From Candidatus Peregrinibacteria bacterium (GTDB lineage: Bacteria; Patescibacteriota; Gracilibacteria; UBA1369; LOWO2-01-FULL-3): a stretch of DNA of 64,000 nt. The stretch spans positions 47,521 to 111,520 of the forward strand of contig JAPLYN010000005.1 in assembly GCA_026395515.1 (NCBI GenBank), read 5' to 3'. The position numbers were made by a program, and so were the translations under genes. Positions 8,248 through 28,113 of the stretch are shown here, one piece after another. Every line of letters begins with the position of its first letter. Positions within the stretch are counted from its first letter, which is position 1. Under the pieces are notes generated by a model that saw nothing but the letters and a program-made list of their open reading frames with translations, had not been told where the DNA came from and made no database searches.

Positions 8248-8277
8248 ACAGAAGGTGTGATATAAATATTAAGCTTC

Positions 8278-8787
8278 CTATCTCTGCATGAAATCACCCG
8301 CTTCTCTAGCTTGCTTCTCAATCATCTTTTTCACATCTTCTGGCATATCGTCATCTTCTGCTGGTTTTAGTGGTGGAGTGACGAAGGTTGGAGTTTCTAT
8401 TGGCATAGCCTTAGGACCATCTTCGTCCACGGTAGGAAGAATCGTAGTATTGAGTTCAATATCAGGAGGTAGCTCAATTTTTTCACGCTTAACCTCCGGA
8501 TGCATCAGTTTCCAGCCTTCCATAATTCCATCAAGTTTGCTCTTTTCTATTTTGCACGCTTGCAAGTCGTCAACCTTAGGCGCCTCATGCTTAACGCCCA
8601 CGCCTTCCAAAGCTCCCTGAATACCTGCGACCTCAAGCTGACATTTATCAAGTTCCTTGTCTCCACATGCCGACATGGCAAGAACTGAAGCAAGAACCGG
8701 CGCCAGTCTCAAAATTGATTTCACAAAATTAACTCTTGATCCAGAATCGCTCTCGTGATCAGTCTCGAAACTATTAGGTCTGTCCAT
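8278..8787 (-). CDS. Predicted lipoprotein at the edge of the giant-protein cluster
   Basis: The frame is open from 8865, but the ATG at 8787 is preferred because a promoter (TTGACG-17-TATTTT, 8813-8841) lies between the two. The 169-residue product has a polar N-tail, a hydrophobic stretch and a lipobox LAMSAC, so it should be a membrane-anchored lipoprotein. The mature part is acidic and Pro-rich with no known domain. A short segment (GWKLMHPEV) resembles one just after the C-terminal membrane helix of the 2093-residue protein in the same cluster (GWKITHPEV), which hints at a shared origin or contact. Confidence 0.75.
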   Translation of the reverse strand: MDRPNSFETDHESDSGSRVNFVKSILRLAPVLASVLAMSACGDKELDKCQLEVAGIQGALEGVGVKHEAPKVDDLQACKIEKSKLDGIMEGWKLMHPEVKREKIELPPDIELNTTILPTVDEDGPKAMPIETPTFVTPPLKPAEDDDMPEDVKKMIEKQAREAGDFMQR

Positions 8788-8812
8788 AAAATTGTTATAT
8801 TGAATAGTACGC

Positions 8813-8841
8813 AAAATACTACTTTCTGAATATAACGTCAA
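8813..8841 (-). promoter_or_regulatory. Promoter of the lipoprotein gene
   Basis: TTGACG (8836-8841), a 17 bp spacer and TATTTT (8813-8818) on the minus strand; start of transcription near 8806, ahead of the ATG at 8787. Confidence 0.6.
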
Positions 8842-8869
8842 TAAAGGACGGCAGGCCTTAGCCAAAAGA

Positions 8870-9109
8870 TTACTTTTTTAGCTTGTTCAATCCATCCACC
8901 ATCATCTTGTATTTGAGCTCAGCACGCTTTTGTTTTTCATTGAGCTTCTCCATTTTCTCGTGCTCAGTACTTAGAGTTTTGTATAAAGTAGAGAGCTCTT
9001 CCTCGTTCATTCCAGGAAGAATAATCTCTATCATACTTTTTTGATGAGTCGTGATAGTGGAAGTCGGAAGAAATCCCAAGATAGCTTTTTTTAATTCTTC
9101 TTTATTCAT
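8870..9109 (-). CDS. Small coiled-coil protein of the giant-protein cluster
   Basis: A 79-residue protein, second gene of a two-gene unit, starting 2 bp after the stop of the 330-residue gene and so probably translationally coupled. Residues 40-79 are Lys/Glu-rich with heptads and likely a coiled coil; residues 1-35 are a short helical domain with a possible amphipathic stretch (KAILGFLPTS). No membrane segment or known motif. Its position suggests a partner of the 330-residue protein. Confidence 0.7.
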   Translation of the reverse strand: MNKEELKKAILGFLPTSTITTHQKSMIEIILPGMNEEELSTLYKTLSTEHEKMEKLNEKQKRAELKYKMMVDGLNKLKK

Positions 9110-9111
9110 GA

Positions 9112-10104
9112 TTAAGCAGATTTCTTACCAGTAAGAATTTCAATTAAACGCTTAATATCGGAATCTTCAATATTGAAAACTAAATCAGTCAAAGTCTGTG
9201 TATCAATATGATCTGGTTTTTCCACCATTAACTTATTAGTAATTTTCATTACATTTTTTATTTTAGCTTCGTTCGTATTTGGGAAAATAGATTTTTTCAT
9301 CACAGCTGCAATTTCGGATTCATTTTTCATCGGCTGCTCTTTGATTCCTTTGAGAGTATCAACATCATCCGTAGTAAGATTAAAACTTTCTAAAAGCTTG
9401 AGTCCCTGTCCTTTTTCTATGCCTGACCCTGGAATAAAACTAAGTCCAGCCTGAATTCCTTCAACTGTAGAATTAATTTCTGTTTTGAAAATCTTCAACA
9501 CCGGCATGCTCAAAAGTTTTTCCAATTTGAACGCAGATTTATCGGAAATTTTATAAAGCCTGTCGAGAGCTTCTTTAAATTTAGTTGGGTCGTTGTATTT
9601 AGCTTTAAACTTTGCAATTGTCAGTAAACTTAATGAGCCCATTGCCTTCACTTCATCAAGTGTAGACATTTCCGGTGTCTTGTTGTTTACAGAATCAGTT
9701 AATTTACCCTTAGCTGACTTGAGGGCATCCTGCATTTCCACCGGAACCTCACCGCCTGCTGTTGCAACCATTGCCACTGCTTCGTTGAAAAATTCCTTAT
9801 CTGCTTCTGGTGTTTTTTCGTCTAATTTAGCTGCTGCTTTTGCATCATTTACTCTGGCATCAATACTTTTATTTGCCTCAGCCTTAGCTTCCGCAGAAAC
9901 CTCTTTTTTTTCATCTTCTATTCCGCGAATTTCATTCCAAAAAGTCTTAGCAAAAATGGCAATTTTTTCATACCAATGTTTATCTTTTGATTTTCCTACA
10001 TTCTCAAGAGCCTTAGAAAAAGCACCAGGTATATTCTCCAATTTAAATTTTCCTTCTTTTGGTTTTTCTTGCGGCGCTGTTTGTTTTTGTTCTTCTCTAG
10101 CCAT
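9112..10104 (-). CDS. Unknown cytosolic helical protein of the giant-protein cluster
   Basis: A 330-residue protein. Residues 1-20 are polar and Lys/Pro-rich; residues 22-65 carry an aromatic amphipathic stretch (HWYEKIAIFAKTFWNEIRG) that could sit on a membrane surface; residues 68-140 are Ala/Lys/Glu-rich and probably coiled coil; the rest is mixed helical. No signal peptide and no domain I recognise. It is the first gene of a two-gene operon driven by a strong promoter (10128-10156), divergent from the 519-residue gene. Confidence 0.75.
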   Translation of the reverse strand: MAREEQKQTAPQEKPKEGKFKLENIPGAFSKALENVGKSKDKHWYEKIAIFAKTFWNEIRGIEDEKKEVSAEAKAEANKSIDARVNDAKAAAKLDEKTPEADKEFFNEAVAMVATAGGEVPVEMQDALKSAKGKLTDSVNNKTPEMSTLDEVKAMGSLSLLTIAKFKAKYNDPTKFKEALDRLYKISDKSAFKLEKLLSMPVLKIFKTEINSTVEGIQAGLSFIPGSGIEKGQGLKLLESFNLTTDDVDTLKGIKEQPMKNESEIAAVMKKSIFPNTNEAKIKNVMKITNKLMVEKPDHIDTQTLTDLVFNIEDSDIKRLIEILTGKKSA

Positions 10105-10127
10105 ATTTTTTGTTTTTTATATCTATA

Positions 10128-10156
10128 ATTATACCATTTTTTAGTCTTTTTTGCAA
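10128..10156 (-). promoter_or_regulatory. Promoter of the 330/79-residue operon
   Basis: TTGCAA (10151-10156), a 17 bp spacer and TATAAT (10128-10133) on the minus strand. Opposite, a TTGACA at about 10190 may be the -35 for the divergent gene, although its -10 is poor. Confidence 0.7.
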
Positions 10157-10241
10157 AAGCTCTACAACATAAATCTTAAGGTAGTAGTCTTGACAAAACA
10201 CAGAAATAGGCAGAGGATGAAGAACTCATAATAAACACAAT

Positions 10242-11801
10242 ATGAATATTAGGAATTTAGGGCTTGCATTAGCGACAGTTGGTGCTTTAGGCAGCTCTCC
10301 AGATGGATCCAAATTAGATGGGCAAAGAGGCAATAATATTGATAATGATATTCCGGCAGTAACAGCCCCAGAAATCACAAAACCTAAAGGTGTTATTGGT
10401 GATAAAATTAAAGCTGCCACTTCTGAAGAATCTTCTTCACTTGAATCGAATGACTCTCCTCAAACTACAGCGGAACTTATTGCTAAAATTCAACTGGATT
10501 GTCCAGATCACGCTAGCATGTTGGCTCAAAATGAACCTGAGTTATATGACTTACTTCAGGCCGAACACCCCCAGATCTTACAGGCTAGTATTTTAACACC
10601 TATTCTTGAAACTGCTGGTGCTTTCTTGAAGCTACTTTATGGAGTACTTGGATCTGAAGGTACTATTGTCGTGGCAATCTTGATGTACATATTTGGAATT
10701 GGTCCAGTATTGAAGAAGGGTTGGCAATTTGGTAAATGGAGCCTCGACAAAGCGGGTAATAAAAAGAAACCTGAAGAGCTAGGAGAAGTAATTCCAAAAA
10801 AGGAATTGCCAGCGATGAATTCAGTACTTGGGGAATTAGTTGCTGATACATCAGTAGCATTGGCTGCACTTTCACCTATTAGCAGAGGTGATCTCGATAG
10901 TCACTACACCTACATAGTTTCTCAATTCGATAATCTAAGGTTTGAAGATAAATCTGAAGGTTTAGAGCTGTTCAAATTAGCAATTAAGGAACGCTATCTA
11001 GATTTAAGATTAACTGAATTGCAAGATATACTTAGTGGTCCAGGAGCAGCTGCATTAGCTCCTGCCGACGTTGCTTCAATGGAAGCAGAATTAGCCGATC
11101 TTACTACTAAAGAAGGGCATATTGCCCAAGAAATAGCCTCAAATGAACTCAGCATATCTTCCGTACGCAATGGCAAGGAAGAATCATTAACTAGAGGTCT
11201 TCAGGTTAGAGTAAGAGCTGCAATGAGAAATGTAGGTAGAACAACACCAGCAATAAATGAATCCAATAGGGGAGTTGAATCTCTAATTATGATCCCTCGT
11301 TTGCATAAGATGGAGAGCAATCTTAGAGAAATTCGTATCCTTGAAGGCAAACTAAAAATATGGAAGGCTCGTTACGAAGCAGATTTGCGTCTTGCTGGTC
11401 CCGGAGCTGCACCAATCGCAATAGCCACCTCAGCAGTAGAACAGCAACAATATCAGCAAGCTGCAGCTTTCATTTCAATTTATGAGAGTTTGCAGTTAGC
11501 CTTGAGAGATAAATTAGACGAGAGGCATTTACACGAAAGAGCTATTCAACGTATTGATCAGATTTTACCTACAAGCCCAGGACGTCGTACATTTATGAAG
11601 CTTGCGCTTACTGCAGGCGCAGCATACGGAGCAACATGGGCGGTGAGGGGACTTGGAGCCGCAAAGGATGCAGTATGGCCTAAAGAAAATCCTCCTGAGG
11701 GGAAAAAAGGTCCATCGGAATCAGAAATTCTTGAACGAAAAGATAGAGAAGATTCACTTAACAAGTCTCAAAAAGCAATTGAAGATCTTGATGATAAGTA
11801 A
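10242..11801 (+). CDS. Unknown membrane-anchored protein of the giant-protein cluster
   Basis: A 519-residue protein with a mildly hydrophobic N-terminus (LGLALATVGALG), a polar linker, a membrane segment at about 125-157 (LLYGVLGSEGTIVVAILMYI), a long helical region at 190-440, and a second hydrophobic segment at about 448-472 preceded by GRRTFMK. The tail is acidic and Pro/Ser-rich and ends ...EDLDDK. This tail (PP, SESE, D-S-L-x-x-S-x-K-A, DD) follows the same plan as the C-terminus of the 2093-residue protein encoded convergently 2 bp away, suggesting that the two are related or bind the same partner. It is the only member of the cluster on the plus strand. No enzyme motif is seen. Confidence 0.75.
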   Translation: MNIRNLGLALATVGALGSSPDGSKLDGQRGNNIDNDIPAVTAPEITKPKGVIGDKIKAATSEESSSLESNDSPQTTAELIAKIQLDCPDHASMLAQNEPELYDLLQAEHPQILQASILTPILETAGAFLKLLYGVLGSEGTIVVAILMYIFGIGPVLKKGWQFGKWSLDKAGNKKKPEELGEVIPKKELPAMNSVLGELVADTSVALAALSPISRGDLDSHYTYIVSQFDNLRFEDKSEGLELFKLAIKERYLDLRLTELQDILSGPGAAALAPADVASMEAELADLTTKEGHIAQEIASNELSISSVRNGKEESLTRGLQVRVRAAMRNVGRTTPAINESNRGVESLIMIPRLHKMESNLREIRILEGKLKIWKARYEADLRLAGPGAAPIAIATSAVEQQQYQQAAAFISIYESLQLALRDKLDERHLHERAIQRIDQILPTSPGRRTFMKLALTAGAAYGATWAVRGLGAAKDAVWPKENPPEGKKGPSESEILERKDREDSLNKSQKAIEDLDDK

Positions 11802-11803
11802 GA

Positions 11804-14800
11804 CTACAGCTTATCGTATTCAGATTTGAGATCTCTAGTTTTGGCTGGATTTACTTTAACATTCGTTTCCTTAGGAGTCTCCTCTTCTTCAGCCTTAGGA
11901 GCTGGTTCTCCATCCATAAGATCCTCATCTTTCACTTCTTCAACCTTAGGAGCTGGCTCATCATCCATAATACCTTCCAGCGCCTTCATTGATTCATCTA
12001 CAGAGGTTTTATCATCTTTTTCTTTCTGCTTTTCAGACTCAGAAGGAGGCTTAGGAGGTTTTGGTACCTCCGGATGAGTGATTTTCCATCCAAAATACAT
12101 ACTTGCGGCCAAAGTAGCAGCAATTGCACCTAGCACCAACTTTCTAGCCGTAGGACTTGAAGGTAATGCCTTAGCCAGAGATAATTTGAGTTTGTTTTTG
12201 ATGCCTTTCACGTCCCCGGTTTCTCTATCGTGAGTTTGTTTTAATCCTTCGAATAATTTGACTGTATTTTCTGCATCTTCAAAAGCTTTTACTGTAATCA
12301 GTGGCGAATTAGGTGCCAAAGGAGTTTCAGTAAGTTTTTTTGCTTTTTCATAAGAAGGCTTCAATGCCTGTAGTCTTTGATCCATCACTCTAACTCTTTC
12401 TATATCTGCCATTATATCAGGGTATCTATGCAACAAATTAACTATATTACCTATGGCAGATTTCACTGGTTTAATTTCTTTGCTGTCGAAACCTCTCGCT
12501 CTCATTTCTACATCAATATAACCCTGCGCCAAATTAGCCATATCCACTCTTCCTGCATCACTTACATAAGCGATCGATTCAGGAATAGCCGCAATTTTTG
12601 GTTTTAGTTCATTTCTCAAATTAGACAATGTCTCTAATTCATGCTCATATTTTGCTTTAAGTTTTGGATCTAGGGTGCTTATATCCAATATGTCAGTCAA
12701 TTCTTTAGTTCTTAAGTTTGCATATTCCCATTTTACTGAATCTGAAAGAATGTTTTGCCCTTCCTTTTCAGTCTTAAATCTAAGACGAGTGCTAAAAAGA
12801 TCTCTCAGTTTTTCATGAAGTTGAGCCAAGCTTTTCTGATTTTCTGTATTCTTTGTTTTTAAAGCTTCACGAGTTGAAACATCAATAGTTGTATCAGCAT
12901 AAATATCATCAACATTTGGGTAACCACCCTCAAGTATGTTTCCTTTTCCTATCAATCCAGGAAGTTTATCCTTATCAACCTCTACGCCAGGTTTATGTTC
13001 TATCTCTTTTGGTTTTTCACCACTTCCAGTTTTTCCAGGTTCAGAGTTTGGATCTTTTTTTAAACCTAATTTTTCAGTTAATCCATATTTATCAGAAAGT
13101 TCCCAAGCTTTTTTTGAACGCCAAACCATCAAAAGAGGCAAAAGCCAACTTATGCCCATGTTATGAGGAAATGGAATTGCGGCCCCAGCTATGGAATCTA
13201 CTACATCCCCAACCCAGCCAGGTATTGGAGTATGACCTAAAGCAGCGGCATACCAAACACCTAAGACAATGCCAGGAACATTATTGGTAGGTCTCTTCCA
13301 AACCTTAAACAATCCAGTCATCATACCCAGAGCAGCAAGCCATGGGAAACCAGCCTGCATCACTTTTCCAGGTGCAATCTGCGCCATTATAGTGTCGTGA
13401 TCGCTGGCTTTAACCAGACCCATATCCTTATAATCATTGAACATATTTTCCATTTCACTACGCACTACAGACATAAAACCCTCTTGATCAACTAAAACAT
13501 ATGGAGCCTTATTATTCACATCTGCATTCGCAAAAATTCTTACATATGGTTTTATTGCATCTGGGAGGTTGTCAAAAATATTTCTGATATTATCTACTAC
13601 ATCCTTAGGCGCATTTGATTTTTCAAGATCTTTAATGATAGCTGCTTCATCAGCATTCGCATCTTTAGTGAAAATATCTTTGGCCTTTTCCGGACTCCAT
13701 TCCTTTGTTTTTACGCCCTCAGTTACCACAAATTTAGAACCAGCTTTTGCTTCGGACATAGCTCCAAATTCTCCTGCTGAAATAGTACTTACTATTCCTG
13801 GACGTTCAGTCGGTTTATCTAAGAACTTTGGATTTCCATTTAATGCTGAAGCCAGAGCTAAGACTTGCAGAGGTCCCATCAGAGCTTCCTGCCATCTACT
13901 TACTCTCATTCTTTGCAAAGCAGTTGGATTATTTACTGTATCGATTTTTGGCTTAAAACTATCTGGTACATCCTTAATTTCCATAGCTTCCACTGTATCC
14001 ATGAAAAATCTAGTCTGCATCCTAGTCATTTTTGGAGCACAAGCTTCTAGAAATTCTGTGCGCTGAGCATCTGCCAATTTAGATGCTACAACTAAAACCT
14101 GATTAGTAGATAGGAGCAATCTCTTTGAAGATCTAATTAATTCCACACCGTTGCTAAAGCTTTGATCCTTAGACATTCCCAAAAGCACATCCCTGAGACC
14201 ATCTGATCCCAAGAAATTTCCTTGCTTATCAACGTAATGATTATAGAAATGCTGTCTCAACCAGCGTGGCATTAATCTTGCAATATTTGATGGTACAAGG
14301 AAATCACCAAGTTTACGTGGTCCACTTAATTCAGTTTCAATTTTTGCAATTGCAGCTTGAACTTCTGACAATCTTTCTTGAACTTTAGTTCTCACAGACG
14401 ATGTTTCGTCTAATAATTCCAAGTGTTTTAATAATTCTTTTTCACTAGTTCTAAGTGCTGGCAAAGTTTCTTCTGGAACCTCAGCTCCCAATTTTTTATG
14501 TACCCATTGCCCACCTACCTTTACCACAGTGAAAGCTCCTCTAAATGCAGCAGCCATAGTGTACATTTCCATCCATGTTTCTCCACTCATAAGATCCATT
14601 TTGCGCTTCATATCTTCTGGCACTATCATATTTCTAGCTGCACTACCCAACACCATAGATAACGCATCGAATTGCAAATCTTGGAGCAAGAATCCGCAAA
14701 CTTTTTTAATAGGTGAATCTGCTTTTCCAGGAAGTGATTGGATCAATTTTCCATACTGTTCACGCATCAAACTTAAGTCTTTAACTCCATCTTTTACTAA

Positions 14801-17800: not shown

Positions 17801-18085
17801 TTTTAAATCAAAAGCATCTCTTGTTTGCTGAAATAATTTCATGAAAAAATTTCCTCCATCAAAAGATCCAACAACTCCATTTTCAGTTTTACCAAGATCA
17901 GAATAGATCTTAATTATCTGCGCCATTGTCTGTTGAAGCTTAACAGGATCTTGCTTAGCTTTTACGTCTAAGTTCTTAATTGATGCGATTAGTCTTTCAT
18001 AGGCTTGTTTCCCATCACCAATCTGTTCCGGTTTCTCTGAATGAACTTCTGGCGGACTATTTTTATAAATTAATCTATTTTCCAT
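11804..18085 (-). CDS. Giant membrane-associated protein (2093 aa), function unknown
   Basis: Starts MENRLIYKNSPPEV. Residues 20-900 are soluble-looking and helical. A hydrophobic region lies at about 925-990 (NGLAMLTGMIAGSAIARVL), a second at about 1580-1655 (FPWLAALGMMTGLF; ISWLLPLLMVW), and a single membrane helix at about 1978-1998, followed by a roughly 95-residue acidic Pro/Glu-rich tail with two near-copies of a D-x-E-P-A-P-K repeat. It ends RDLKSEYDKL, nearly the same as the end of the 360-residue neighbour. There is no catalytic motif, no Sec signal and no LPXTG. It is third in the 1325-360-2093 operon, 2 bp after its neighbour. The whole frame is intact, so it is under selection. 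Confidence 0.85.
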   Translation of the reverse strand: MENRLIYKNSPPEVHSEKPEQIGDGKQAYERLIASIKNLDVKAKQDPVKLQQTMAQIIKIYSDLGKTENGVVGSFDGGNFFMKLFQQTRDAFDLKAIAASSDYNKTIVQRLGLLADPDVYANQILNDGTVSWNEGTVKSFANDIVTVADFYAFQNVNKSEAYAQDYLKAAYALKYSKLSGAEITDKQFQRWLTYNKDHYEIEVVNNFVNVLPDASKQKLQKSIIDLQSQAAELKTKAEFDTMFSKLGSDASTSPIVKEVLAAGNLNINGASDKNDPMYYAPQSIYLALSWAFYKSLTDNPNQDIALPAANLVHEAHNGVYDQFPELKPVDVAQIAERSRMSEETSESVVSGNKITNEAEKIAAEMATDNDSHLPDFKLGKNPSSKLVELTGSLFETESQIQNLKVGIIQGIDGKGQSNMGDELEKSMTALRKELKDMYGFEEIVALNPDVKNKVQESLNYYEAFAVALHNADFLPTAEKTIDESAALSEKDWATNFSDLKHVYLVLRFSSYLPKETVPKYKVLLERAKKLYLDRAIALNIPPAATTSPSPFVSKADDNFYREENNEYEYSPMIDVSTSADQSKEAFEIPEIMNKQLNRIEVIRSLATSLLRNEDDDDEIKAYADPVMKDMDSVQAEMFNYYTGDEYDGVTAFKLDEKLNARVPFRNFLFGLKNLMTPAWAKTGPSIKSADAYSSLEKIVDKKGSVHDLRTFVSQIARDGNKFKGCYDSLMQVIQGGDNVSMETIKYAGVIVVKLEREHFNDFVSSRILMAKLLQPHMAKSRNNLETHAEGYTRMGHEKAHQKASRDVRNYLGSGNNADKLISSIRMSIKQKNPDIKDADLNTLAGSTYSEFYDAMIEEQTDVLYKTFLDHAALSSNYFEFFGKADGADKVLKEDFIDSVDPDNETWNWSDEGMKIFATVTKELAINGLAMLTGMIAGSAIARVLRYGKLLLNLERFATIGRTLERGISLVSLGTEALVFHDVVAGLKGEKSLESLWKNGDYANFALGLAGETAFFGVAKGISWLNSFKKQGAVGRGLMKLAISNPEMSEMVEKTLAAAATKNSEEAVLALENIMTRGVKLTGRKTYQKLPAEVSELVKDGVKDLSLMREQYGKLIQSLPGKADSPIKKVCGFLLQDLQFDALSMVLGSAARNMIVPEDMKRKMDLMSGETWMEMYTMAAAFRGAFTVVKVGGQWVHKKLGAEVPEETLPALRTSEKELLKHLELLDETSSVRTKVQERLSEVQAAIAKIETELSGPRKLGDFLVPSNIARLMPRWLRQHFYNHYVDKQGNFLGSDGLRDVLLGMSKDQSFSNGVELIRSSKRLLLSTNQVLVVASKLADAQRTEFLEACAPKMTRMQTRFFMDTVEAMEIKDVPDSFKPKIDTVNNPTALQRMRVSRWQEALMGPLQVLALASALNGNPKFLDKPTERPGIVSTISAGEFGAMSEAKAGSKFVVTEGVKTKEWSPEKAKDIFTKDANADEAAIIKDLEKSNAPKDVVDNIRNIFDNLPDAIKPYVRIFANADVNNKAPYVLVDQEGFMSVVRSEMENMFNDYKDMGLVKASDHDTIMAQIAPGKVMQAGFPWLAALGMMTGLFKVWKRPTNNVPGIVLGVWYAAALGHTPIPGWVGDVVDSIAGAAIPFPHNMGISWLLPLLMVWRSKKAWELSDKYGLTEKLGLKKDPNSEPGKTGSGEKPKEIEHKPGVEVDKDKLPGLIGKGNILEGGYPNVDDIYADTTIDVSTREALKTKNTENQKSLAQLHEKLRDLFSTRLRFKTEKEGQNILSDSVKWEYANLRTKELTDILDISTLDPKLKAKYEHELETLSNLRNELKPKIAAIPESIAYVSDAGRVDMANLAQGYIDVEMRARGFDSKEIKPVKSAIGNIVNLLHRYPDIMADIERVRVMDQRLQALKPSYEKAKKLTETPLAPNSPLITVKAFEDAENTVKLFEGLKQTHDRETGDVKGIKNKLKLSLAKALPSSPTARKLVLGAIAATLAASMYFGWKITHPEVPKPPKPPSESEKQKEKDDKTSVDESMKALEGIMDDEPAPKVEEVKDEDLMDGEPAPKAEEEETPKETNVKVNPAKTRDLKSEYDKL

Positions 18086-18087
18086 AT

Positions 18088-19170
18088 TTATAGTTTATCA
18101 AATTCAGCTTTTAAATCTCTCCTTCCTTTTATGTTTTTTGATTGGTCTACAAAATCAAATCCAACTAAATCCTTTGGAGAGCCCATTGCCTTGAAGTTTT
18201 TAATCCCAATTCCATTTTTAATTTCTTTAGCCTTAGCATCAATTTGATTTTTAAGTCCTATTCCCTTCACTTGAAGTACTGGAGACAAACCATTGAACAA
18301 TTTTTGAGAATGATAATCTAGTTTTTCCATTTCCTTCTCATATTTTTTTATCAAAATAGCATATTTCTTTTCTCCATTATCCTTCATCCAATTATACAAA
18401 TCCCTGATACTCAATTTAACTTTTAAACTATTATTAGGAAGAAAACGATCACATGGAATACCAGATGCTCTAGGATATTCTGTTGGCTGAATCTGCGGTT
18501 TATCCCAATCAACAATATATGAAAGATAAGCTTTCATTTGATCTCTCGATTCTCTAAACTTTGCCAAATCGGAAACTAATTTGGCTCTACGAGGATCATT
18601 CGGCAAAAGAGTGTTTCCCTTCAATGCAGCTTCTGTTCTAGATACATCTCTATCTAACTGAACCAACCTATCTCCCAATTGTCTATTTCTATTATATATT
18701 TCCTTTCTCATTGATTCTACTCTTTGAAATTCGTTCAAGAATGGTTGATTGAAAGCAGTTAACTCCTTTATCTTAATTTCAAGAAAAGCCATTCTTCTAT
18801 ATCCCTCAACTGCCGTATTCAATTTTGCATCACCAGTATCATTAGCTCTTGGAATGTAATTTGGACTATTTGAATTAGATAATTCGAAATATTCCTCTAG
18901 CTTTTCTGGAGTGCCAGGGTTTTCTACCCATTCGGTTATTTTTCTTACGCCACTTTCGCCCATCGCAAATCCCTTCTCCACTAAGTGTACTGCTTTACCG
19001 ATAATATCTGTGGAAAGAGTGAGGAGTTTCGTAGCAGCATCCAATGCTTCAGCTAATCCAGCTTTTAGTTTATCTCCTAAATCCTCAGGTCCATCAAAAA
19101 TAAACCTATTCTCCTTCATCGAGAAATTTGATTTGTGTAAACATTGTAAAATTGATTTTTTAATTCGCAT
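18088..19170 (-). CDS. Unknown 360-aa protein sharing end motifs with its giant neighbours
   Basis: Begins MRIKKSILQCLHKSNFSMKENRFIFDGPED; an internal Met at residue 18 (base 19,119) is an alternative start. ENRFIF followed by GPED matches the E-x-R-[FL]-[IV]-[YF] motif seen in the 1325- and 2093-residue proteins. Residues 35-80 are an amphipathic or hydrophobic helix; residues 120-215 are a likely coiled coil; the protein ends RDLKAEFDKL, like the 2093-residue protein. It lies 10 bp after the 1325-residue gene and 2 bp before the 2093-residue gene, so all three are one operon and probably one assembly. Function unknown. Confidence 0.75.
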   Translation of the reverse strand: MRIKKSILQCLHKSNFSMKENRFIFDGPEDLGDKLKAGLAEALDAATKLLTLSTDIIGKAVHLVEKGFAMGESGVRKITEWVENPGTPEKLEEYFELSNSNSPNYIPRANDTGDAKLNTAVEGYRRMAFLEIKIKELTAFNQPFLNEFQRVESMRKEIYNRNRQLGDRLVQLDRDVSRTEAALKGNTLLPNDPRRAKLVSDLAKFRESRDQMKAYLSYIVDWDKPQIQPTEYPRASGIPCDRFLPNNSLKVKLSIRDLYNWMKDNGEKKYAILIKKYEKEMEKLDYHSQKLFNGLSPVLQVKGIGLKNQIDAKAKEIKNGIGIKNFKAMGSPKDLVGFDFVDQSKNIKGRRDLKAEFDKL

Positions 19171-19180
19171 TTTTTAATTA

Positions 19181-22100
19181 TTAACCAAATAACCACAACT
19201 TAAAGTCATCCCATTTTTCACTTACCCAACCAGGAACAGTAGTTCTCTTAAAGTAAGTGTCGAAATTATTTTTATCAGTTATCGATTGTTCAAGTATTCT
19301 GTAAATTCTAGCATTGATTAATTCTTCCTGATAGCCTCTAGTTACGGTTCTTGATCCGGAAAGTTTATTCTCAATGTCTTGAATTTCTACAGCAAGACTT
19401 GTTGGAGAGAAAGAAGTGCCACTTTCATCTGGAAGACCAAAGTCATAATGAATTAGATCATTATCGCTACTATCAACCGCATATGAATAGTGCAATTGAT
19501 ATTGCTGTCTAAGTTGACTAAATGCACCGTCTTTTAAATTATCTTTAAATTTTGCTTCTAAATTACTAAGAGCTTCTTCCATCCTATCCTGGAAAGCTTT
19601 CTCAAGCTTAGTTAACCTTTCCATTTTAACAGTAATAGCGCCAGGTTCCTTAGCTTTTACTAATTTTTTAAACAAAGCTCTCTGCGGAGATCCAGCAGGT
19701 AACTTTAAAGGACAGCTGTGTCTAGGCAATACGATCTTATCTTCTGGAACGTTATCATTGGATGGGTCAGAGTCAGCTAATCTATCCAAATATTTATCAA
19801 ACTCCACAAAGTCTTTTTTGCTTGTAAGAACCTCTCTTGTATCGACGAATTGCTCAGCTGACGGCTTAGGAATCCAATCTTTGAAATTTGTAATAGCCCA
19901 GAAAGATCCAGGAGCAGGAATTTTCTCAACATTTAATAAATCCTGATTACGTTTTAAATTAATCTGACCAACAACATAATCAACATATTGAGAATGCACT
20001 CTGTATTTTTCTGCTTTCTCATATTCTTTAAAAGTATTATTAACGAAGTCTTCAGTTATAGTAGTACTACCTGAAGCTGCAATGATTTCCGCACTTGTAG
20101 GATTCTTCTTGCCAGAATCTACCAAAGCCTTTTTTGCTCTGGTCAAAACATCTACATCTGCTTTTTCCGGTGCAGACAAACTCAAATTCAAATTTGCTCC
20201 GTCCATACTCGGATCATCTACGGCTGATGTGTAGTAAGAAAATACTTTTACTAAGTCGGCTGCTTTTACCGCATTTCCTTTTCTCAAATCATCCATGCCA
20301 TAGTGAGCATATGTCTGGTCAACAAATTGTCTGTACCATGATTTATAATCATTGCTCTGAATTCCAATTTCGCTAATTTTACCGAACACTCCAGATTTAA
20401 AATCATCACTTGTATAATGATCTCCTTCTGCACGTTTCTGAGTTATTTGAGCACTGAATCTATCCCTCTGTTGTTCTAGATCTTTTAGAGCAGGAGTATA
20501 AATAGTATTAATTCTATCTGCAACTTCTCCCAAATTAGATGTAGAGCCAATAGATCCTACAAGCTTTGAAATAACCAAAGACTTCTGAGTTTCGATTAAT
20601 CCTAATGTGTAATTTTTAGGAATAGAACCAGTAAATCCTTTCAATCCTAATCCACGAGTTGGATCGGCTAACGTAGCCTTAGTAAACCACTCAGGAATAT
20701 TTTGGAATAGGTTGAAGAAATATGATTCAGGCGCATTTTCTATTAATTTTTTCCATGAATCAGTGACGTTAGCCATCTCTTGGTTATCTTTCATAACATC
20801 TCCTAGCTCCTCTGCAAAACCACTTCCATCTTTTAAAAGTAATTGCTCTTGAGTAGAAGGCTCAAAACTAAATTGCTTAGAGGCATTATCATATTTAATA
20901 ACTGCCTCAAGACCCTTCTTACCAATTTTTATTTTAAATAATCCATCATCTGGAGTTCCTTCATCAATTTTCAATTTTCCAGCAGTAGCAAAATATCCAA
21001 GAGCCTTGAATTCTCTCTGCTCTGTTAATCTTCCAAGAACATCTCTCTCTACGTATTTTTCAGCAGAAGTCTCTCCATCCAAAATCAACATCTGACCTAA
21101 ATCATTAGGCTTAACAATTGTGGATGCATTTTCTTTTTCAGCAACACCCAAATCTGCTGCACCTTTAAACTTAGTAACGGCTTTCCATTCACCAGATGCA
21201 TAAGTTAATCCAGTTATATCTCTATTTTTTTCTTGAAGATTCTTAAGCAATTCTCCCATTCTCTCATCCACTCTCTTCACCGCTTCCTCAGCTCCTGCTT
21301 TTCCACCCTCAAGTGGAATAAATTTAAATTTAGTACCAGGTGTAGCATTGTATCCGAGCTTGTCATTGTAATCGCTCTGTAAATAAATCCTGTAACCTTC
21401 CTTCACGGCAACCACCACGATAGGGAAGCCTTTCAAATGTCCGGCAATATGGCCACTTCCAGGTTTTAACTCAGTAGTGTTATCTAGAGTAAATCCATTG
21501 TTTTCCAAAACTTTATCAGTTCCAGCCAACATTTTATCTTTAATCTCTTGTGGTTTTCTACCTGACAAGAATCCGGAACCAACACTTTCAGGAGCATACT
21601 GTCTAGCAGCCTCCAAAAGTTTCCAAACTCTCAAATCACTTCTTCCTGGATCTGTCAGCATCATCTCGTAAGTAAGTCCTGTATATTTTGGATGATCTTT
21701 AAACAAAGTCTTTTCATAAACCACTGGCAACGCCAATGCTAATTTATATAATTGTTTACCAATTTTCGCATATTCTCTTTCAGTGGCACCGTCAGGTTTA
21801 TTAATATCCTGACTCTTAAATGGCCAAGCATTTTTTACATCCGGGAATAAATCCGGAAATTCTCTAGGGTGAATAAATTTATCCACACCGCTAGTCTTCG
21901 CACTCTTCAAAAATCTATCAAGATCTACAAGTTTTGTTTCAGACATCTTGAGAACAATTCCGTAATCTAAATCCTTAGTCTCATCTGCAACCTTGCTCTG
22001 ACTCAAAATATTCTGCATAGACTCCATCGGAGTCCCCTTTACTTCAGAATTCATATCTTTAAATCCAGCCATCTTCAACACATCGTAACCGGCATTTTTC

Positions 22101-23158
22101 AAAAGTTTATCAGCACCATAAATTGCGGCACCCCACATTGCCCAAGTCTTAATATCAAAGCCACCACCATTAGCAGCATCATGTCCGCCACCATGTCCGT
22201 CGCCACCACCAAAAAGTTTGGCACCAACAGTTTTCCATAATGCATAAGCACCAACGGCATAAATACCAAGTGTCGCATAATCTCCCTTCTTAGCAGCTTC
22301 TTGAAGAACCGTAATGTTGCTCTTCACAAAATCAGTAGCAGTAGTTCCAATTGGATCTACTCCCTGTTTTGATTCAGCACCAAGAGTATTTCTTTTATTT
22401 GTATCTTGAACCATCAATCTCGCTCTTACCTGAGTCAAAGAATCGAAAGCTTTTAAATAAGCTTCACCTCCTAAGAAGTTTCCCTTTGCAGCCAAGCCAG
22501 AAATGTCTGCTTTGCTTTTGTCAGAAAGAGAATCCTTAAATGCCACAATATATTCGCCATTATTTTCTGCACGATATGGATTGCTCTTATCAGCAGCTCC
22601 ATTTAAGACAGCAAACATTGTGCCATAATATGCCGCATCTTTAGGGTCATTCATAATACCAAGATCCACAAAATCCTTTTTGATTTTATCCAATCCTTCT
22701 GGAGTAGAGTGGTCCCATGTTTGAGCATTTATTTTTGAACTATCAATTCTCAACCAATCAAGCTTATTAGTTTGCTCAGTCGCATCCTTTTTCAAGAAAT
22801 CATCAACTTTTAGTTTAGGCGTAACTTTTTCTTGAGCTTTTTTTTCTTCATCTTTGCGTTCTTTTTCCGTATCGACTTCTGTACCACGTCTAGGTTTTCT
22901 TTTTGGAAGTTTTTCTGCATCCCTCAAAGTATCACGTCTCTTTGTGCTTCTCTCTTTCAAGCTTTCTACTTTTGTATCTGCTTTTCCTTTTACAGTCTTT
23001 TTTCCAATTTCAATTTTTCCTGCTTCGTCAGAGCTTTCATCCACATCATCTACTTTCCCTTCTTTATCATCATCTCCTGGAGGTGTCATATAAACAAATC
23101 TCGCTTCATGAAAGAGCGAATTCAGAACCCTAAATGTGTGCAATATTTTCTTTTCCAT
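19181..23158 (-). CDS. Giant protein (1325 aa), first gene of the three-gene operon
   Basis: Begins MEKKILHTFRVLNSLFHEARFVYMTPPGDD: a short basic, hydrophobic leader and then the EARFVY motif shared with the next two genes. Residues 30-110 are highly charged and disordered. A possible membrane pair lies at about 296-349, interrupted by a Gly/His-rich loop (GGGDGHGGGHDAANGGG). The rest is globular with many helices and no motif known to me. It has its own promoter (23188-23216) that overlaps the terminator of the upstream operon. The end DDFKLWLFG lacks the DKL ending of its two neighbours. Confidence 0.82.
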   Translation of the reverse strand: MEKKILHTFRVLNSLFHEARFVYMTPPGDDDKEGKVDDVDESSDEAGKIEIGKKTVKGKADTKVESLKERSTKRRDTLRDAEKLPKRKPRRGTEVDTEKERKDEEKKAQEKVTPKLKVDDFLKKDATEQTNKLDWLRIDSSKINAQTWDHSTPEGLDKIKKDFVDLGIMNDPKDAAYYGTMFAVLNGAADKSNPYRAENNGEYIVAFKDSLSDKSKADISGLAAKGNFLGGEAYLKAFDSLTQVRARLMVQDTNKRNTLGAESKQGVDPIGTTATDFVKSNITVLQEAAKKGDYATLGIYAVGAYALWKTVGAKLFGGGDGHGGGHDAANGGGFDIKTWAMWGAAIYGADKLLKNAGYDVLKMAGFKDMNSEVKGTPMESMQNILSQSKVADETKDLDYGIVLKMSETKLVDLDRFLKSAKTSGVDKFIHPREFPDLFPDVKNAWPFKSQDINKPDGATEREYAKIGKQLYKLALALPVVYEKTLFKDHPKYTGLTYEMMLTDPGRSDLRVWKLLEAARQYAPESVGSGFLSGRKPQEIKDKMLAGTDKVLENNGFTLDNTTELKPGSGHIAGHLKGFPIVVVAVKEGYRIYLQSDYNDKLGYNATPGTKFKFIPLEGGKAGAEEAVKRVDERMGELLKNLQEKNRDITGLTYASGEWKAVTKFKGAADLGVAEKENASTIVKPNDLGQMLILDGETSAEKYVERDVLGRLTEQREFKALGYFATAGKLKIDEGTPDDGLFKIKIGKKGLEAVIKYDNASKQFSFEPSTQEQLLLKDGSGFAEELGDVMKDNQEMANVTDSWKKLIENAPESYFFNLFQNIPEWFTKATLADPTRGLGLKGFTGSIPKNYTLGLIETQKSLVISKLVGSIGSTSNLGEVADRINTIYTPALKDLEQQRDRFSAQITQKRAEGDHYTSDDFKSGVFGKISEIGIQSNDYKSWYRQFVDQTYAHYGMDDLRKGNAVKAADLVKVFSYYTSAVDDPSMDGANLNLSLSAPEKADVDVLTRAKKALVDSGKKNPTSAEIIAASGSTTITEDFVNNTFKEYEKAEKYRVHSQYVDYVVGQINLKRNQDLLNVEKIPAPGSFWAITNFKDWIPKPSAEQFVDTREVLTSKKDFVEFDKYLDRLADSDPSNDNVPEDKIVLPRHSCPLKLPAGSPQRALFKKLVKAKEPGAITVKMERLTKLEKAFQDRMEEALSNLEAKFKDNLKDGAFSQLRQQYQLHYSYAVDSSDNDLIHYDFGLPDESGTSFSPTSLAVEIQDIENKLSGSRTVTRGYQEELINARIYRILEQSITDKNNFDTYFKRTTVPGWVSEKWDDFKLWLFG

Positions 23159-23187
23159 TTGTACAATATTTATTTTTGTATCAAGTC

Positions 23188-23216
23188 ATTATACCAAAAA
23201 ACACCCCCTTTTACAA
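23188..23216 (-). promoter_or_regulatory. Promoter of the 1325-360-2093 operon
   Basis: TTGTAA (23211-23216), a 17 bp spacer and TATAAT (23188-23193) on the minus strand. The -35 and spacer overlap the terminator hairpin of the operon upstream, so read-through and initiation may interfere. Confidence 0.65.
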
Positions 23217-23227
23217 TCCTGGGGGGT
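23196..23227 (-). terminator. Rho-independent terminator of the 1461/124-residue operon
   Basis: ACCCCC / GGGGGT arms (23203-23208, 23222-23227) with a T-run on the minus strand. Confidence 0.7.
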
Positions 23228-23264
23228 CATATACTTGCACACATTCAGTTGACAGAAATTCAGT

Positions 23265-23639
23265 CTATGATGCTTGAATTTCGTTGAATTTCTTAATGAA
23301 ATTTTGGAAAAACACCGTCATTCCGGCATAAATTTTTTCCATTAAATTTGGATACATCATCGCGAATTCAATCAAAGTATCTTCATGCTTCATCCATGGC
23401 ATTGTGATAGCCGTTTGGTTAATGAATTCACGCATGTGTTTAGCCATTTCATCATCAATATTATTCCAAATACTGAAGATAAGGTGATCCTTAGTTTGAC
23501 GCTTCAGCATGCCCATTACCAAGGCTTTATAGACCTCATCACGAGGGTCAATATTTAGCTGCGCAACAATAGCTTCGTACATGCTATCTGCATCCTTGAA
23601 TATTTTTGCTGCGTCTTGTTGTGATTGATTATTATTCAT
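23265..23639 (-). CDS. Small unknown helical protein of the giant-protein cluster
   Basis: A 124-residue protein starting 8 bp after the 1461-residue gene, so co-transcribed with it. Rich in Met and aromatic residues (MPWMKHEDTLIEFAMMYP), with a hydrophobic amphipathic C-terminal helix (AGMTVFFQNFIKKFNEIQ) that could touch a membrane or pack against a larger partner. No Cys pair, signal or known motif. Like the 79-residue protein, it pairs a small helical product with a larger one in the same unit. Confidence 0.7.
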   Translation of the reverse strand: MNNNQSQQDAAKIFKDADSMYEAIVAQLNIDPRDEVYKALVMGMLKRQTKDHLIFSIWNNIDDEMAKHMREFINQTAITMPWMKHEDTLIEFAMMYPNLMEKIYAGMTVFFQNFIKKFNEIQAS

Positions 23640-23647
23640 TTTAATTA

Positions 23648-26600
23648 TTAGGCAGCTTTCTTATGATCATCAGGTTTAGCATGAGCATCTACTTTTTCGG
23701 CATGCGCATCATGTGCGCCATGAGCAGCATCGTGAGGCTTAGCGTGTTCGTCTTTCTTTTCTTCATGACCTACTTTTACTTCAGCTCCATGTGGAGCATC
23801 GATCTTAATTCCAAGTGCCGTAGCGACCATATCAATTTGCTTCTTGTATTTAGCCAAATCAACAAATGGAGAATCCGGAACTTCAATCGCTTCCAAATCA
23901 GATTTAGGTTCATGAATTTTCATTAATTCTGCACGTTCTCCTGATTTCTTCTTATTTCTATCTTCATATTTAGTGTCTGCATATTTTACTTTGCCCCATT
24001 CGCCACTCACAGTACTTGTCACCGTTTCCGCAGTGCCTTTCATTACGCCACTAGCCTTTCCTTTGGCATAACCCATGATTCTCGCAGTGTCATTTTTCAC
24101 TGAATCTCTAATGCCTGGCAACGGAGTCCATTTATTAGCTCTGAATAAATTAATGAAACCAACTAATGGTTTTGCAGCTAAAAGTAGGGGATACTTTGCC
24201 GCTCTCACAGGTAGTAGGGCAGTTTGGAAACCTAGAGCCGTTCCGAGCTTAGTCGCGCCCCAGACGCCTTTACCAGCGATCTTGAGCGGTGCGAACACAC
24301 CGGCCGCAAGAGCCTTCTTTCCTACAAATGAACCAGCATCATGCGCTTTATCTTTCAACCATTGAGCATATGGTGAATTCCAATATTTAGCACCAACGCT
24401 ATCCGCGGAGAATTCCACATCTACTTCAGACTCTTTAGCTTCCTTTACTAGAGCTTCTAATTTGTGATCGTAAACTGCACCAGTAATTTTTCCAGATTTA
24501 AATTGATCATTCAAATCATCATATTTCATATTGAGAACATTCTTTTTATTTTCTCTCGCCTTTTTACCTTTTTCACCAACAGCCATTTCGGCATGAGCTT
24601 TCATAATAGGTCTTACTTTTTCCATCTGAGCCTTGAACGCATCATCTACAACTTTAGCAATTCCAGCATTATCCATATGAGTATCTACACCCAACTTTTT
24701 TGCCAAAAGAGCTCTCAATTTCTTTTCTAATTTAACTGACTGAATTGATTTCGTGCCATTATCAAAATCTTCAAAGGCCGCAAGTACAAAGGTACCTTTC
24801 TCATAATTTAATTTTCCAAAAGTAAATAATTTATCCATCTTTTCCCAACTTTCGAAATCCTCAGGTTTCAAGCCCTTAAATGGCTGATTAACTTTGTCTC
24901 CTTCCTTATATTTGAAATTCAGAAGTTTAGTTCTAAATCCAGCAAAGCTTGCCGCCTCTGACTTCTCAGCGGTTGCTCTCTGCGCCAAGCCTTCGTAACC
25001 TTCATCTGTCAGCAAAGTTGCCACGTCATCAGCAAGGATCATTGTCACAAGCTTATTGTGATCCATAGGTGAAAGATCTGGGAATTGCTCTGCAACTAGG
25101 GCGCCTATAATTTTACGTGCTGCCTGAGCGTCGCTAAGATCCTTTGATTTTTCGTTACCTTCCTTGGCAGCCTTCAAATCTTTCTCACTTTTCTTAACTT
25201 TTTCTTCCGCCACAGTAATGGCAGAATTAACATTAGTATTTAAGACTTTACGACTCTCCTCATCGCCAATTATTGGAAGTAAATACTCATTGTAAAATAC
25301 CGCTACATCTTTAACCTTAAAATCTTTGTGGTCTGGTTTTGTGAGTGCAGCAAATTTCTTTTCTATGTCATGAGCTAATCTTTCTTCAGCCTCTTTTTCA
25401 GTTTCCATTACAACTTTTCCTTCAGCATCTTTATTCTTCTTCTCTTGTGGCTTAGCACCAAGTTTAACTCCATGATGAGCAGACTTAACAAGTCTAGCTA
25501 CTAAGGGGCCCAAAGACTCGTATAGAGCCTTAGCCTTTTCTATTTTTCCACTTTCATCATTTAGTGCCTGCTGTTCATCTATTCCATAACCAGCTCCCTT
25601 CAAAGTTTTTTCAGCAGCACTAGAAATGCTTGAAAAGCCTCCGCTTAGAGTTTGATAATTTGATTTTAGTTTTCCAAGATCTTCAATTGAATTCACATTC
25701 AATCCATTGAAATAGTTTTTTAAAGATACAATTTCTTTCAATTTTGACACTTTTGTTGCTCCACCAAGGTCGAAGACTCCAAGACCTATAGCTTTTTCGC
25801 AGCCTCTAGCCAAGTCTAAAATATCAGTTCTAAAGGCCTTCAATGTATCTTTGAATTTTTCAAGTTGAGAAATAGCTACTGTAAGTTTTTTTAATTCTGA
25901 ACGACTATCAGTGAATTCACCCTCTTTTTTTTCTAATTCTCTCTCCAAATCCCTAATAGTTTCACGAACAGCCTCCTTCTGATACTCTTCTACCTTTGGA
26001 TCCGCACTTAATCTATTCAAATTAGCTTTTTCTTGCTGAATATTGCTAACAAGCAATGGTTTACCAGTCTTTTCGTAGTTATCAACTGTTCCTTTTAACA
26101 AATCAGCTTCAGATTTTTTATCAGCAAGTTTACTTTCAAAATCACCATCACCTGACAAAAGGTAACCAGTCAACAATCCATCAAGCTCCAAAAATTTATC
26201 CTGCACTTCTCCAAGTTTCTTCTCACCAAATAGTGTTTTTACCTCTTCCAGCTTACCTTTCTCTTCATTCTTAGCGTCCATTGCTGCCTTCTTTTCGCGC
26301 GCACTGGCAGCATCGACGCCAATCTTACTGGGATCATCGCTTCCAAGAAGTTCTTTGTATTTTTTATGGATGTTTTTAACATCATCTCCGCCAAAATATT
26401 TTTTATCCTCAACAAGATCAGCTTTTGTATGTTCAACGTGATGATGATGATCTTCTAGCTTTTTCATTTCATCAGAAGTTTTCTGAACACCAAATGCACG
26501 CTCCAAAATCTCTTTTAATTTAAGAGAAGGAGACTTAAAGTCCTTCAAACGTTTTGCTTCATCAGCATAGCTATTCAGAAATTTCTGAGCTTCTGCCAAT

Positions 26601-28033
26601 TCAGCGGTATTTGCGGATAATGATTTGGCAATATCAGCATAAATTTCAGCAATAAAAGGTTTATAAACAGTATTAATAAATGCTCTAATAAGAGCTGGAC
26701 GATCTTCCGCTGAATTGGCTTTCAAAGCAGCAAGCTGTGACAAGTATTTATCGCATTTGCCACCAATACCACTCACTAAACTTTCCAATTCTGGATTTTT
26801 TAATTTTTCAATTTCGAGCGCAGATTCATCAAGCTGACCAATCACTTTCTCAGTAATTTCCTGCTTTTTAGCTTCATTTTCTTGTTTACCAGCCTCAAAT
26901 TCAGATCCCTGTAAAGTATTATCCGCTAGTTCTCTATGTGTATCATAGTAGCTCGATAATAATGGTAAGGTTGATCTCAAAATACCCTCGGAGAAATTAA
27001 GACCCTCAACTTGTCTTCTTAGAATTTCATCTCCATACGCCTTTTTTGAATCAGGGTAAGATTTCTCAGCCTTAAGATAAGACCTAGAATTTATTTTCTT
27101 AAACAGAGGTTTTAATGTGTTTTCTAAAGTTAACAACCAAGTTTCATAATTAAAATCACCAGCAGTTAAAATAAGTTCAAGGGCATTGAGAGCGTTATCA
27201 ATTTCACTTATTTTTGAAGCATCAAAATTGTAAGCAGCAATAGTATCCCTGAATTCAGATAGCCCATTTCTTAAATTAGCAATTTTAGAAACATAGATAC
27301 CTTTATCAATTTGTTTATTAGACAGTTCATTTTGTAGCTCACCTTCATCGTCCTTAATAAATTTAATTCTGTCATCTACTTGATCATTATGCTCATCAAT
27401 TTCATCCAACTCATCCAAGTTTATATCAGTTCTACTTAAACCATTAGTAATATCATTGGCTTTAACCAAAGCAGCATTTTCAGGCTCTAGCTCAGCCTTT
27501 TTAGCTTCGTGTTTAGCTTTGTCTTCGGCCAATTTTACTATGTCAGCATTGTACTTTTCTCTCACTCCCTGACCAGCTGTAACGTCTTTTAATCTTCTTA
27601 CTACAGCCTGTAATTCGGATCTTCCTTTTAGACCAAGCTTTGGATCAACTTTGAATTTTAAAACTTTATCTAAAACCTTCATTAAATCGCCATTTTCATG
27701 TTCCAATTCTCCCTCAGCAATTACATCTTTTCCTTCATCATTTTTTACAATTTTTGGACCACGCTCCATCAAGAATCTTCCATATACGCTACGGAAAGCT
27801 TTCTTGAAAGCGCCTGGGCCTGTGCCGGATTTTTCTAAAGCCTTTTTGAAAATTTCCGCATGGCCTTTCATTGATGTGTCTATGGCCTCCTTAGTCTCCA
27901 CATCAATCAAATTTATCTCAACAGCCTTCGCTAAAACTTCTTCCGGTTTTGTATCCGCAATATCTTCCAAACTACTCAATTGTTTGGATTCAAAGTCTTC
28001 TTGGTCTTTGTCGAGTTTTCTGGCTACTCCCAT
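23648..28033 (-). CDS. Giant coiled-coil protein (1461 aa) with His-rich tail
   Basis: Mostly Lys/Glu/Ala/Leu-rich, with long coiled-coil stretches between about 160 and 1190. A Gly/Ala-rich hydrophobic region lies at about 1234-1294 (GKKALAAGVFAPLKIAGKGV...); it looks more like a membrane-associating region than a clean helix. The last 45 residues are rich in His, Asp, Ala and Lys (AHGAHDAHAEKVDAHAKP), plausibly a metal-binding tail. No signal peptide or enzymatic motif. It is the first gene of an operon with the 124-residue protein; its promoter overlaps that of trigger factor on the other strand. SMC and Rad50 are excluded because no Walker A or ABC signature is present. Confidence 0.82.
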   Translation of the reverse strand: MGVARKLDKDQEDFESKQLSSLEDIADTKPEEVLAKAVEINLIDVETKEAIDTSMKGHAEIFKKALEKSGTGPGAFKKAFRSVYGRFLMERGPKIVKNDEGKDVIAEGELEHENGDLMKVLDKVLKFKVDPKLGLKGRSELQAVVRRLKDVTAGQGVREKYNADIVKLAEDKAKHEAKKAELEPENAALVKANDITNGLSRTDINLDELDEIDEHNDQVDDRIKFIKDDEGELQNELSNKQIDKGIYVSKIANLRNGLSEFRDTIAAYNFDASKISEIDNALNALELILTAGDFNYETWLLTLENTLKPLFKKINSRSYLKAEKSYPDSKKAYGDEILRRQVEGLNFSEGILRSTLPLLSSYYDTHRELADNTLQGSEFEAGKQENEAKKQEITEKVIGQLDESALEIEKLKNPELESLVSGIGGKCDKYLSQLAALKANSAEDRPALIRAFINTVYKPFIAEIYADIAKSLSANTAELAEAQKFLNSYADEAKRLKDFKSPSLKLKEILERAFGVQKTSDEMKKLEDHHHHVEHTKADLVEDKKYFGGDDVKNIHKKYKELLGSDDPSKIGVDAASAREKKAAMDAKNEEKGKLEEVKTLFGEKKLGEVQDKFLELDGLLTGYLLSGDGDFESKLADKKSEADLLKGTVDNYEKTGKPLLVSNIQQEKANLNRLSADPKVEEYQKEAVRETIRDLERELEKKEGEFTDSRSELKKLTVAISQLEKFKDTLKAFRTDILDLARGCEKAIGLGVFDLGGATKVSKLKEIVSLKNYFNGLNVNSIEDLGKLKSNYQTLSGGFSSISSAAEKTLKGAGYGIDEQQALNDESGKIEKAKALYESLGPLVARLVKSAHHGVKLGAKPQEKKNKDAEGKVVMETEKEAEERLAHDIEKKFAALTKPDHKDFKVKDVAVFYNEYLLPIIGDEESRKVLNTNVNSAITVAEEKVKKSEKDLKAAKEGNEKSKDLSDAQAARKIIGALVAEQFPDLSPMDHNKLVTMILADDVATLLTDEGYEGLAQRATAEKSEAASFAGFRTKLLNFKYKEGDKVNQPFKGLKPEDFESWEKMDKLFTFGKLNYEKGTFVLAAFEDFDNGTKSIQSVKLEKKLRALLAKKLGVDTHMDNAGIAKVVDDAFKAQMEKVRPIMKAHAEMAVGEKGKKARENKKNVLNMKYDDLNDQFKSGKITGAVYDHKLEALVKEAKESEVDVEFSADSVGAKYWNSPYAQWLKDKAHDAGSFVGKKALAAGVFAPLKIAGKGVWGATKLGTALGFQTALLPVRAAKYPLLLAAKPLVGFINLFRANKWTPLPGIRDSVKNDTARIMGYAKGKASGVMKGTAETVTSTVSGEWGKVKYADTKYEDRNKKKSGERAELMKIHEPKSDLEAIEVPDSPFVDLAKYKKQIDMVATALGIKIDAPHGAEVKVGHEEKKDEHAKPHDAAHGAHDAHAEKVDAHAKPDDHKKAA

Positions 28034-28084: not shown

Positions 28085-28113
28085 TTGCCAAAAGGGTTTC
28101 TGGCCTGTAAAAT
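28085..28113 (+). promoter_or_regulatory. Promoter of the trigger factor gene
   Basis: TTGCCA (28085-28090), a 17 bp spacer and TAAAAT (28108-28113). Its -35 directly abuts that of the divergent giant-protein operon. The mRNA leader would be about 85 nt. Confidence 0.6.

Follow-up and report, generated by a model that had tools for sequence, protein, structure and literature searches.

Layout and products of the gene cluster

The window, meaning the whole 64-kb stretch of DNA that was analysed, lies on contig C6 of a 1.30-Mb genome (G000), and 19.8 of its 64 kb are occupied by a cluster of nine open reading frames that an earlier note had called and that were all found in place. Gaps within runs of genes measure 2-10 bp and those between runs 106 and 137 bp; the earlier note spoke of four transcription units, while its own list contains five. 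Genes and products are referred to below by product length in amino acids.

28085..29482 (+), trigger factor (tig), constant neighbour; not claimed as a cluster member
23648..28033 (-), untagged giant of 1461 aa, oriented divergently to trigger factor
23265..23639 (-), small 124-aa protein between 1461 (8 bp upstream) and 1325 (106 bp downstream)
19181..23158 (-), 1325-aa core giant, tagged; best conserved member
23078..23122 (-), N-terminal tag of 1325 (NSLFHEARFVYMTPP), matrix score 29.3 bits
18088..19170 (-), 360-aa protein, tagged
19084..19125 (-), N-terminal tag of 360 (FSMKENRFIFDGPE), matrix score 25.9 bits
11804..18085 (-), 2093-aa giant with an acidic tail at the C-terminus and a single hydrophobic segment (residues 923-941)
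18050..18085 (-), shortened tag of 2093 (MENRLIYKN...), weak (E 0.08); kept only in G000 and its sister species G002
10242..11801 (+), 519-aa protein with a single hydrophobic helix (135-153); paralogous to roughly residues 1766-2041 of 2093
9112..10104 (-), 330-aa protein, conserved member
8870..9109 (-), small 79-aa protein starting 2 bp downstream of 330; conserved member
8278..8865 (-), predicted lipoprotein, lipobox read by eye; apparent local addition

The lipoprotein reading frame encodes 195 aa from a TTG start, and a length of 169 aa corresponds to an internal ATG. The 519-aa protein and the C-terminus of 2093 are paralogues (E 2.9e-13). The tails of the 2093 and 360 products are near-identical (RDLKSEYDKL at window 11804-11840 and RDLKAEFDKL at 18088-18120), and the tails in G002 differ. 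Elsewhere in the window, ResIII helicase, N6/N4 DNA methylase and UvrD/PD-(D/E)XK genes stand in a row at 49413-56691 (-), which may be a restriction or defence locus.

A near-consensus promoter ahead of each unit, as had been proposed, was not found, good candidates being present only for the 330 gene (10156-10128, 10/12, the -10 preceded by TG) and the 1325 gene (23216-23188, 10/12, TG). The site of the lipoprotein gene (8841-8813) scores 9/12, that of 1461 also scores 9/12 and ends seven bases from the ATG, and no promoter site is listed upstream of 519. Counts of promoter sites were within or little above those of shuffled sequence (9 vs 6.0, sd 2.3; 14 vs 14.4, sd 3.8). A perfect 12/12 promoter with TG before the -10 is located at 8247-8220 (-), downstream of the lipoprotein gene, and is directed away from the cluster, towards tRNA-His at 7695-7771.

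The absence of recognisable domains from the cluster, on the other hand, was confirmed, as none of the nine products reaches a Pfam or NCBIfam cut-off. Neither collection gave a match of any of the nine to type IV secretion system (T4SS) families, and a Pfam scan up to E 1 returned no WD40, PKD, DUF11 or fibronectin domain. Profiles of 1325, 2093, 124 and 330 found no solved relative at E 0.001. Long coiled coils, which had also been proposed, were not borne out, since heptad coverage is 0.00-0.10 in every product longer than 79 aa (0.38 in the 79-aa product, by our own simple heptad scan) and the model of 1325 is a mixture of helix and strand. This AlphaFold2 model of residues 286-1325 (pLDDT 75.5, pTM 0.52) is mostly helical with strand-rich parts near model residues 285-410 and 440-480, and a Foldseek search with it returned nothing at E 0.001 in the PDB or in viral models. 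The 2093 core was modelled as all-helical but poorly (pLDDT 58.7). Hydrophobic helices are present in 519 and 2093, and 1325 contains no strong membrane segment.

Conservation of the cluster beside tig

Of the 353 genomes of the class, 24 gave a match to a profile of 1325, and 21 of these belong to its own GTDB family, which numbers 30 genomes. The three further matches are marginal (spanning about 100 positions at E 1.5e-4 to 5.5e-4, with an internal stop in two) and we count them as chance; the 1325 family thus appears convincingly restricted to one GTDB family among the 353 class genomes. The genomes in which this profile found relatives are MAGs from the candidate phyla radiation that go under the names Ca. 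Peribacteria, Peregrinibacteria or Gracilibacteria. Among 79 genomes, 2093 was matched in 7 and 1461 in 12, with the genome of origin counted in both cases.

A cluster gene was present in the stretches taken from 22 genomes, and the cluster abuts tig in 18 of these, a count made up of 16 genomes in which a recognised member lies directly beside tig and two (G006, G010) in which one unrecognised giant intervenes. As for the other four, the sequence ends short of tig in G001, G016 and G022, and G008 differs, with a reduced version of the cluster and no trigger factor within its 20-kb stretch. The conserved order is tig, (1461-124), 1325, a medium protein (360 here), a giant (2093 here), 330 and 79. 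The 1461 gene adjoins tig in G002, G003, G009, G012, G013, G015, G024 and G025; 1325 does so in G023, G027, G029, G005, G019 and G021, which have no 1461-124 pair there, and G004 is rearranged, with 1461-124 on a separate contig. The positions of 360 and 2093 are filled in G019, G021, G010 and G015 by genes of 207-299 aa and 906-1791 aa that were not recognised by sequence. The architecture is thus kept where similarity of sequence is lost, which speaks for a single assembly that evolves fast. Between 2093 and 330, G027 encodes a different protein of 177 aa with a TM anchor.

Co-occurrence in relatives had been set beforehand as the test by which the idea of a common assembly could be refuted. 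Seven of the nine members recur in fixed order across the GTDB family, which supports one functional assembly. Of the other two, 519 was found only in G000 and G002 among the genomes compared, and the lipoprotein, with no relative among the contigs compared, is not a conserved member; both read as local additions. Intact frames under selection, as the earlier note had put it, hold for eight of the nine genes, which are 68-94% identical in G002 with their frames intact and are thus under selection, but not for the lipoprotein, which has no relative there. Similarly, of the large envelope-linked assembly that was proposed, the assembly itself is supported by the fixed order, while the link to the envelope is indirect and comes from the predicted lipoprotein, the TM-anchored 177-aa protein of G027, the hydrophobic helices of 519 and 2093 and an N-terminal tag held in common with wall-active enzymes.

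An N-terminal tag on giant and other proteins

This tag, with the consensus FKENRLVF, is found on 1325 and 360 and on their relatives, with a remnant on 2093, and it also opens two other giant reading frames of G000 (2207 and 1894 aa) that came up when the genome was sampled. Three to four new places in G000 were then found with a profile built from 17 tags. A second profile, in which the new places were included, placed eight G000 reading frames below E 0.001 (1325, 360, 2207, 849, 547, 1894, 242 and 662 aa), giving six strong tagged loci besides 1325 and 360, with 2093 at E 0.08; these E-values are partly circular, as the second profile contains G000 tags. The tag was matched at E 0.1 in 52 of the 79 genomes, where about 8 matches are expected by chance. 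In all 30 loci returned, it lies at the start of the reading frame, at most 18 residues past the earliest start codon, and an upstream stop is present within 35 codons in 29 of them, with none in the sequence covered for G012. One of the 30 frames (G036) is only 35 aa long.

To limit circularity, a matrix was built from 26 tags of genomes other than G000, among them tags of 1325 and 360 relatives, and applied to the window and to stretches of G000 taken before the tag search. At a threshold of at least 12 bits, it selected four N-termini out of 369 and no internal window out of 2372. The four N-termini, those of 2207, 1325, 360 and 1894, score 22-35 bits, with the next best at 6.4, and two of them (1325, 360) are the window's own. 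Within the cluster, 15 of 20 members of the 1325 family reach at least 12 bits; the 360 proteins reach 10 in 6 of 16, and the 2093 remnant is present in 2 of 13 (G000, G002), indicating that within the cluster the tag may be called solid on 1325 only. When all loci were pooled, many of them picked for their tags, 62 distinct reading frames out of 1151 were tagged at 12 bits or more, with the 15-mer beginning at residue 2-23.

At the level of the class, 58 of 353 genomes match the tag at E 0.02, compared to about 7 by chance. In families that contributed no tags to the profile, the matches examined (G274, G344, G346 and G349) place the tag N-terminally in reading frames of 220-1410 aa. An even sample of 379 genomes of the phylum, searched at E 0.005, yielded four matches beyond the class; three fall in frames of 20-30 aa, and the fourth lies 44 codons inside a frame of 111 aa. 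The tag, which recurs on many otherwise unrelated proteins of one bacterial class, is the new result, and no mention of it or of the cluster was found in the literature searched.

The tag resembles a Sec signal peptide in being N-terminal and in having wall-active enzymes among its members, but it has a conserved Glu and Arg in the middle of the motif and is missing the hydrophobic core; by simple hydropathy, 1 of the 62 tagged frames has an N-terminal 12-mer with a mean of at least 2.2. Arg is written in six codons within the motif, Leu in six and Val in four, indicating that the peptide, and not the DNA, is conserved. This result bears on a reading in which the tag has no role in sorting and tunes the translation or stability of large proteins, the cluster being an unrelated fast-evolving locus. 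The place of the tag at the start of the frame, mostly on large proteins, would suit such a role, but a DNA or mRNA element would not show conservation of the peptide with synonymous codons left free, and the tag is also carried by proteins of 220-550 aa. We consider this reading unlikely.

Tagged proteins and their possible destination

Pfam scans of two sets of 22 and 18 tagged proteins, some of them scanned singly, showed that most have no convincing domain, that weak coiled-coil matches are common and that one protein in each set matches WG repeats. The tagged 849-aa protein contains a phage tail lysozyme domain (PF18013, 28.7 bits against a cut-off of 28.2) and a GDSL hydrolase match just under the cut-off (PF13472, 32.7 bits against 32.9). 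The tagged 547-aa protein is DD-peptidase-like, with a Beta-lactamase2 domain (PF13354, 101 bits), SxxK present, and a Pro/Thr/Ala-rich linker of wall type. No Sec signal was seen in either by eye and hydropathy, and the activities predicted for both belong outside the membrane.

The phage tail lysozyme domain also fits an origin in a phage-like particle, with the tag as a capsid- or tail-loading signal and the giants as internal or tape-measure-like proteins, as phages load internal proteins by way of short N-terminal tags. Signals of this general kind include the capsid targeting sequences of T4 internal proteins, the cargo peptides of encapsulins and microcompartments and the effector signals of extracellular contractile systems. 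The tag is like these in joining a short N-terminal peptide and a linker to otherwise unrelated proteins but differs in being spread over a bacterial class, the comparison of sequence being by pattern scan of viral contigs only. That scan, for exact FKENRLVF, returned three stretches, none of which starts a reading frame longer than 41 aa, and the viral contig collection contains no relative of 1325. Together with the absence of a viral fold match to the 1325 model at E 0.001 and the scattering of tagged genes among genes read by eye as housekeeping, this makes a phage-like origin very unlikely.

Several further tagged proteins are encoded in G000. The 2207-aa giant (L099:637-7260 (+), G000:C6:340637-347260) lies beside a gene read by eye as tpiA, and a tagged giant is found in the same place in G003, G007, G012, G013, G015, G018 and G019; next after it comes a 1649-aa protein whose N-terminus looks Sec-like and, two genes further, an SLH-domain protein. 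The 1894-aa protein (L103:9388-15072 (-), G000:C6:509388-515072) comes after a 104-aa small protein, with a similar pair in G002, and contains a glycine-rich hydrophobic middle and an HELQH motif that we take to be zincin-like. A 242-aa WG-repeat protein (L133:12094-12822 (+), G000:C4) has for neighbours genes that look by eye like ftsZ and ftsA; a tagged 281-aa relative is present in G003.

A gene of 104-133 aa on the same strand directly precedes 10 of 14 tagged genes, just as 124 precedes 1325, the 14 having been chosen partly for a visible small neighbour. By eye, these small proteins often end in leucine-rich stretches such as NNLLTSI, DDLLASLDK and NLLTKLDEL (L103, L133, L212, L234, L236, L238, L247). 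Comparisons of small-partner profiles failed in three of four cases and were weak in one. The tagged proteins are poor in cysteine, with a median of 2.2 per 1000 residues vs 9.7 in cytosolic-like proteins. This is no mark of export, however, because Sec-like proteins of G000 are not clearly cysteine-poor (median 5.9; mean 11.9 vs 12.0 in cytosolic-like proteins).

The tag is also present on the glutamate synthase large subunits of G000 (L135:3692-8392 (-)) and G003 (L250), where it precedes the predicted catalytic Cys, the nucleophile in known enzymes, and on a divergent glutamate synthase in G023. Glutamate synthase is normally cytosolic, and the tagged ones argue against simple export. They are consistent with the chief rival of envelope sorting, in which the tag is a docking motif for an intracellular hub (a filament, the inner face of the membrane or a compartment) that gathers giants and enzymes and exports nothing. 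The tagged WG-repeat protein beside the putative ftsZ and ftsA would also fit a hub, as would the lack of a strong membrane segment in 1325 and the finding that a DD-peptidase-like relative in G009 (57% identical) lacks the tag as well as a Sec signal. Lysozyme, GDSL and DD-peptidase-like domains, one of them behind a wall-type linker, would have no obvious cytoplasmic substrate, and we regard a hub as possible but doubtful. The G009 relative is a 924-aa protein (L269:761-3535 (-), G009:C22) that joins the DD-peptidase-like domain to an HCxxGxxR motif, which we take to be phosphatase-like.

We favour envelope sorting, with confidence somewhat short of even, as the account of a conserved, family-specific locus of giant helical proteins: the FKENRLVF tag of 1325 may be a sorting signal that docks products at, or delivers them to, one envelope site, where they would build a scaffold of several subunits. 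Tagged subunits would be brought to one place, most likely at the envelope or the exterior, by a receptor that recognises FKENRLVF, and the small proteins encoded beside giants could act as dedicated chaperones or adaptors. As in relatives that live as epibionts, the assembly may serve to make contact with a host cell. A related small-genome epibiont, Vampirococcus lugosii, likewise encodes giant proteins, for which its authors infer a membrane location and host attachment; the V. lugosii giants mostly have recognisable interaction or adhesion domains, whereas the cluster proteins have none and 1325 and 360 have an N-terminal tag (PMC8080830). In Vampirococcus, 48.9% of genes lack both a COG and a conserved domain (PMC8080830), and proteins above 5000 aa are described as enriched in Peregrinibacteria (PMC11573180). 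The tag may bear on how such bacteria bring large proteins to their surface or into a host. Because it can be searched for, it gathers orphan giants into a single class open to testing, which has predicted clients, small partners and a receptor that is postulated, and it offers a 15-residue handle for pull-downs and reporter fusions.

A wider form of the envelope reading is tentative. Here, a class-wide non-Sec N-terminal signal not described before, together with dedicated small partners, would bring giants and wall-degrading enzymes together in a single apparatus at the envelope or for host contact, with the cluster as its largest conserved module. Envelope sorting in general builds on the observed order beside tig, the restriction to one family, the N-terminal tag conserved as peptide and its spread over unrelated proteins that include wall-active enzymes.

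One candidate outlet would be a VirB4-type ATPase (PF19044, 93.7 bits), encoded outside the window at G000:C6:294522-295442 and present in 71 of 79 relatives, although nothing links a T4SS to the tag and no T4SS part is encoded in the cluster by Pfam. Known type IV secretion signals are mostly C-terminal, which counts against this route. So does the scarcity or absence of VirB6 homologues in Gracilibacteria (PMC12102498), while a T4SS is described as essential for growth of an epibiotic Saccharibacterium (PMC12857230). Two untagged giants of 1409 and 1440 aa are encoded near the VirB4-type ATPase gene (L229:3265-7494 (+) and 8248-12570 (+), G000:C6).
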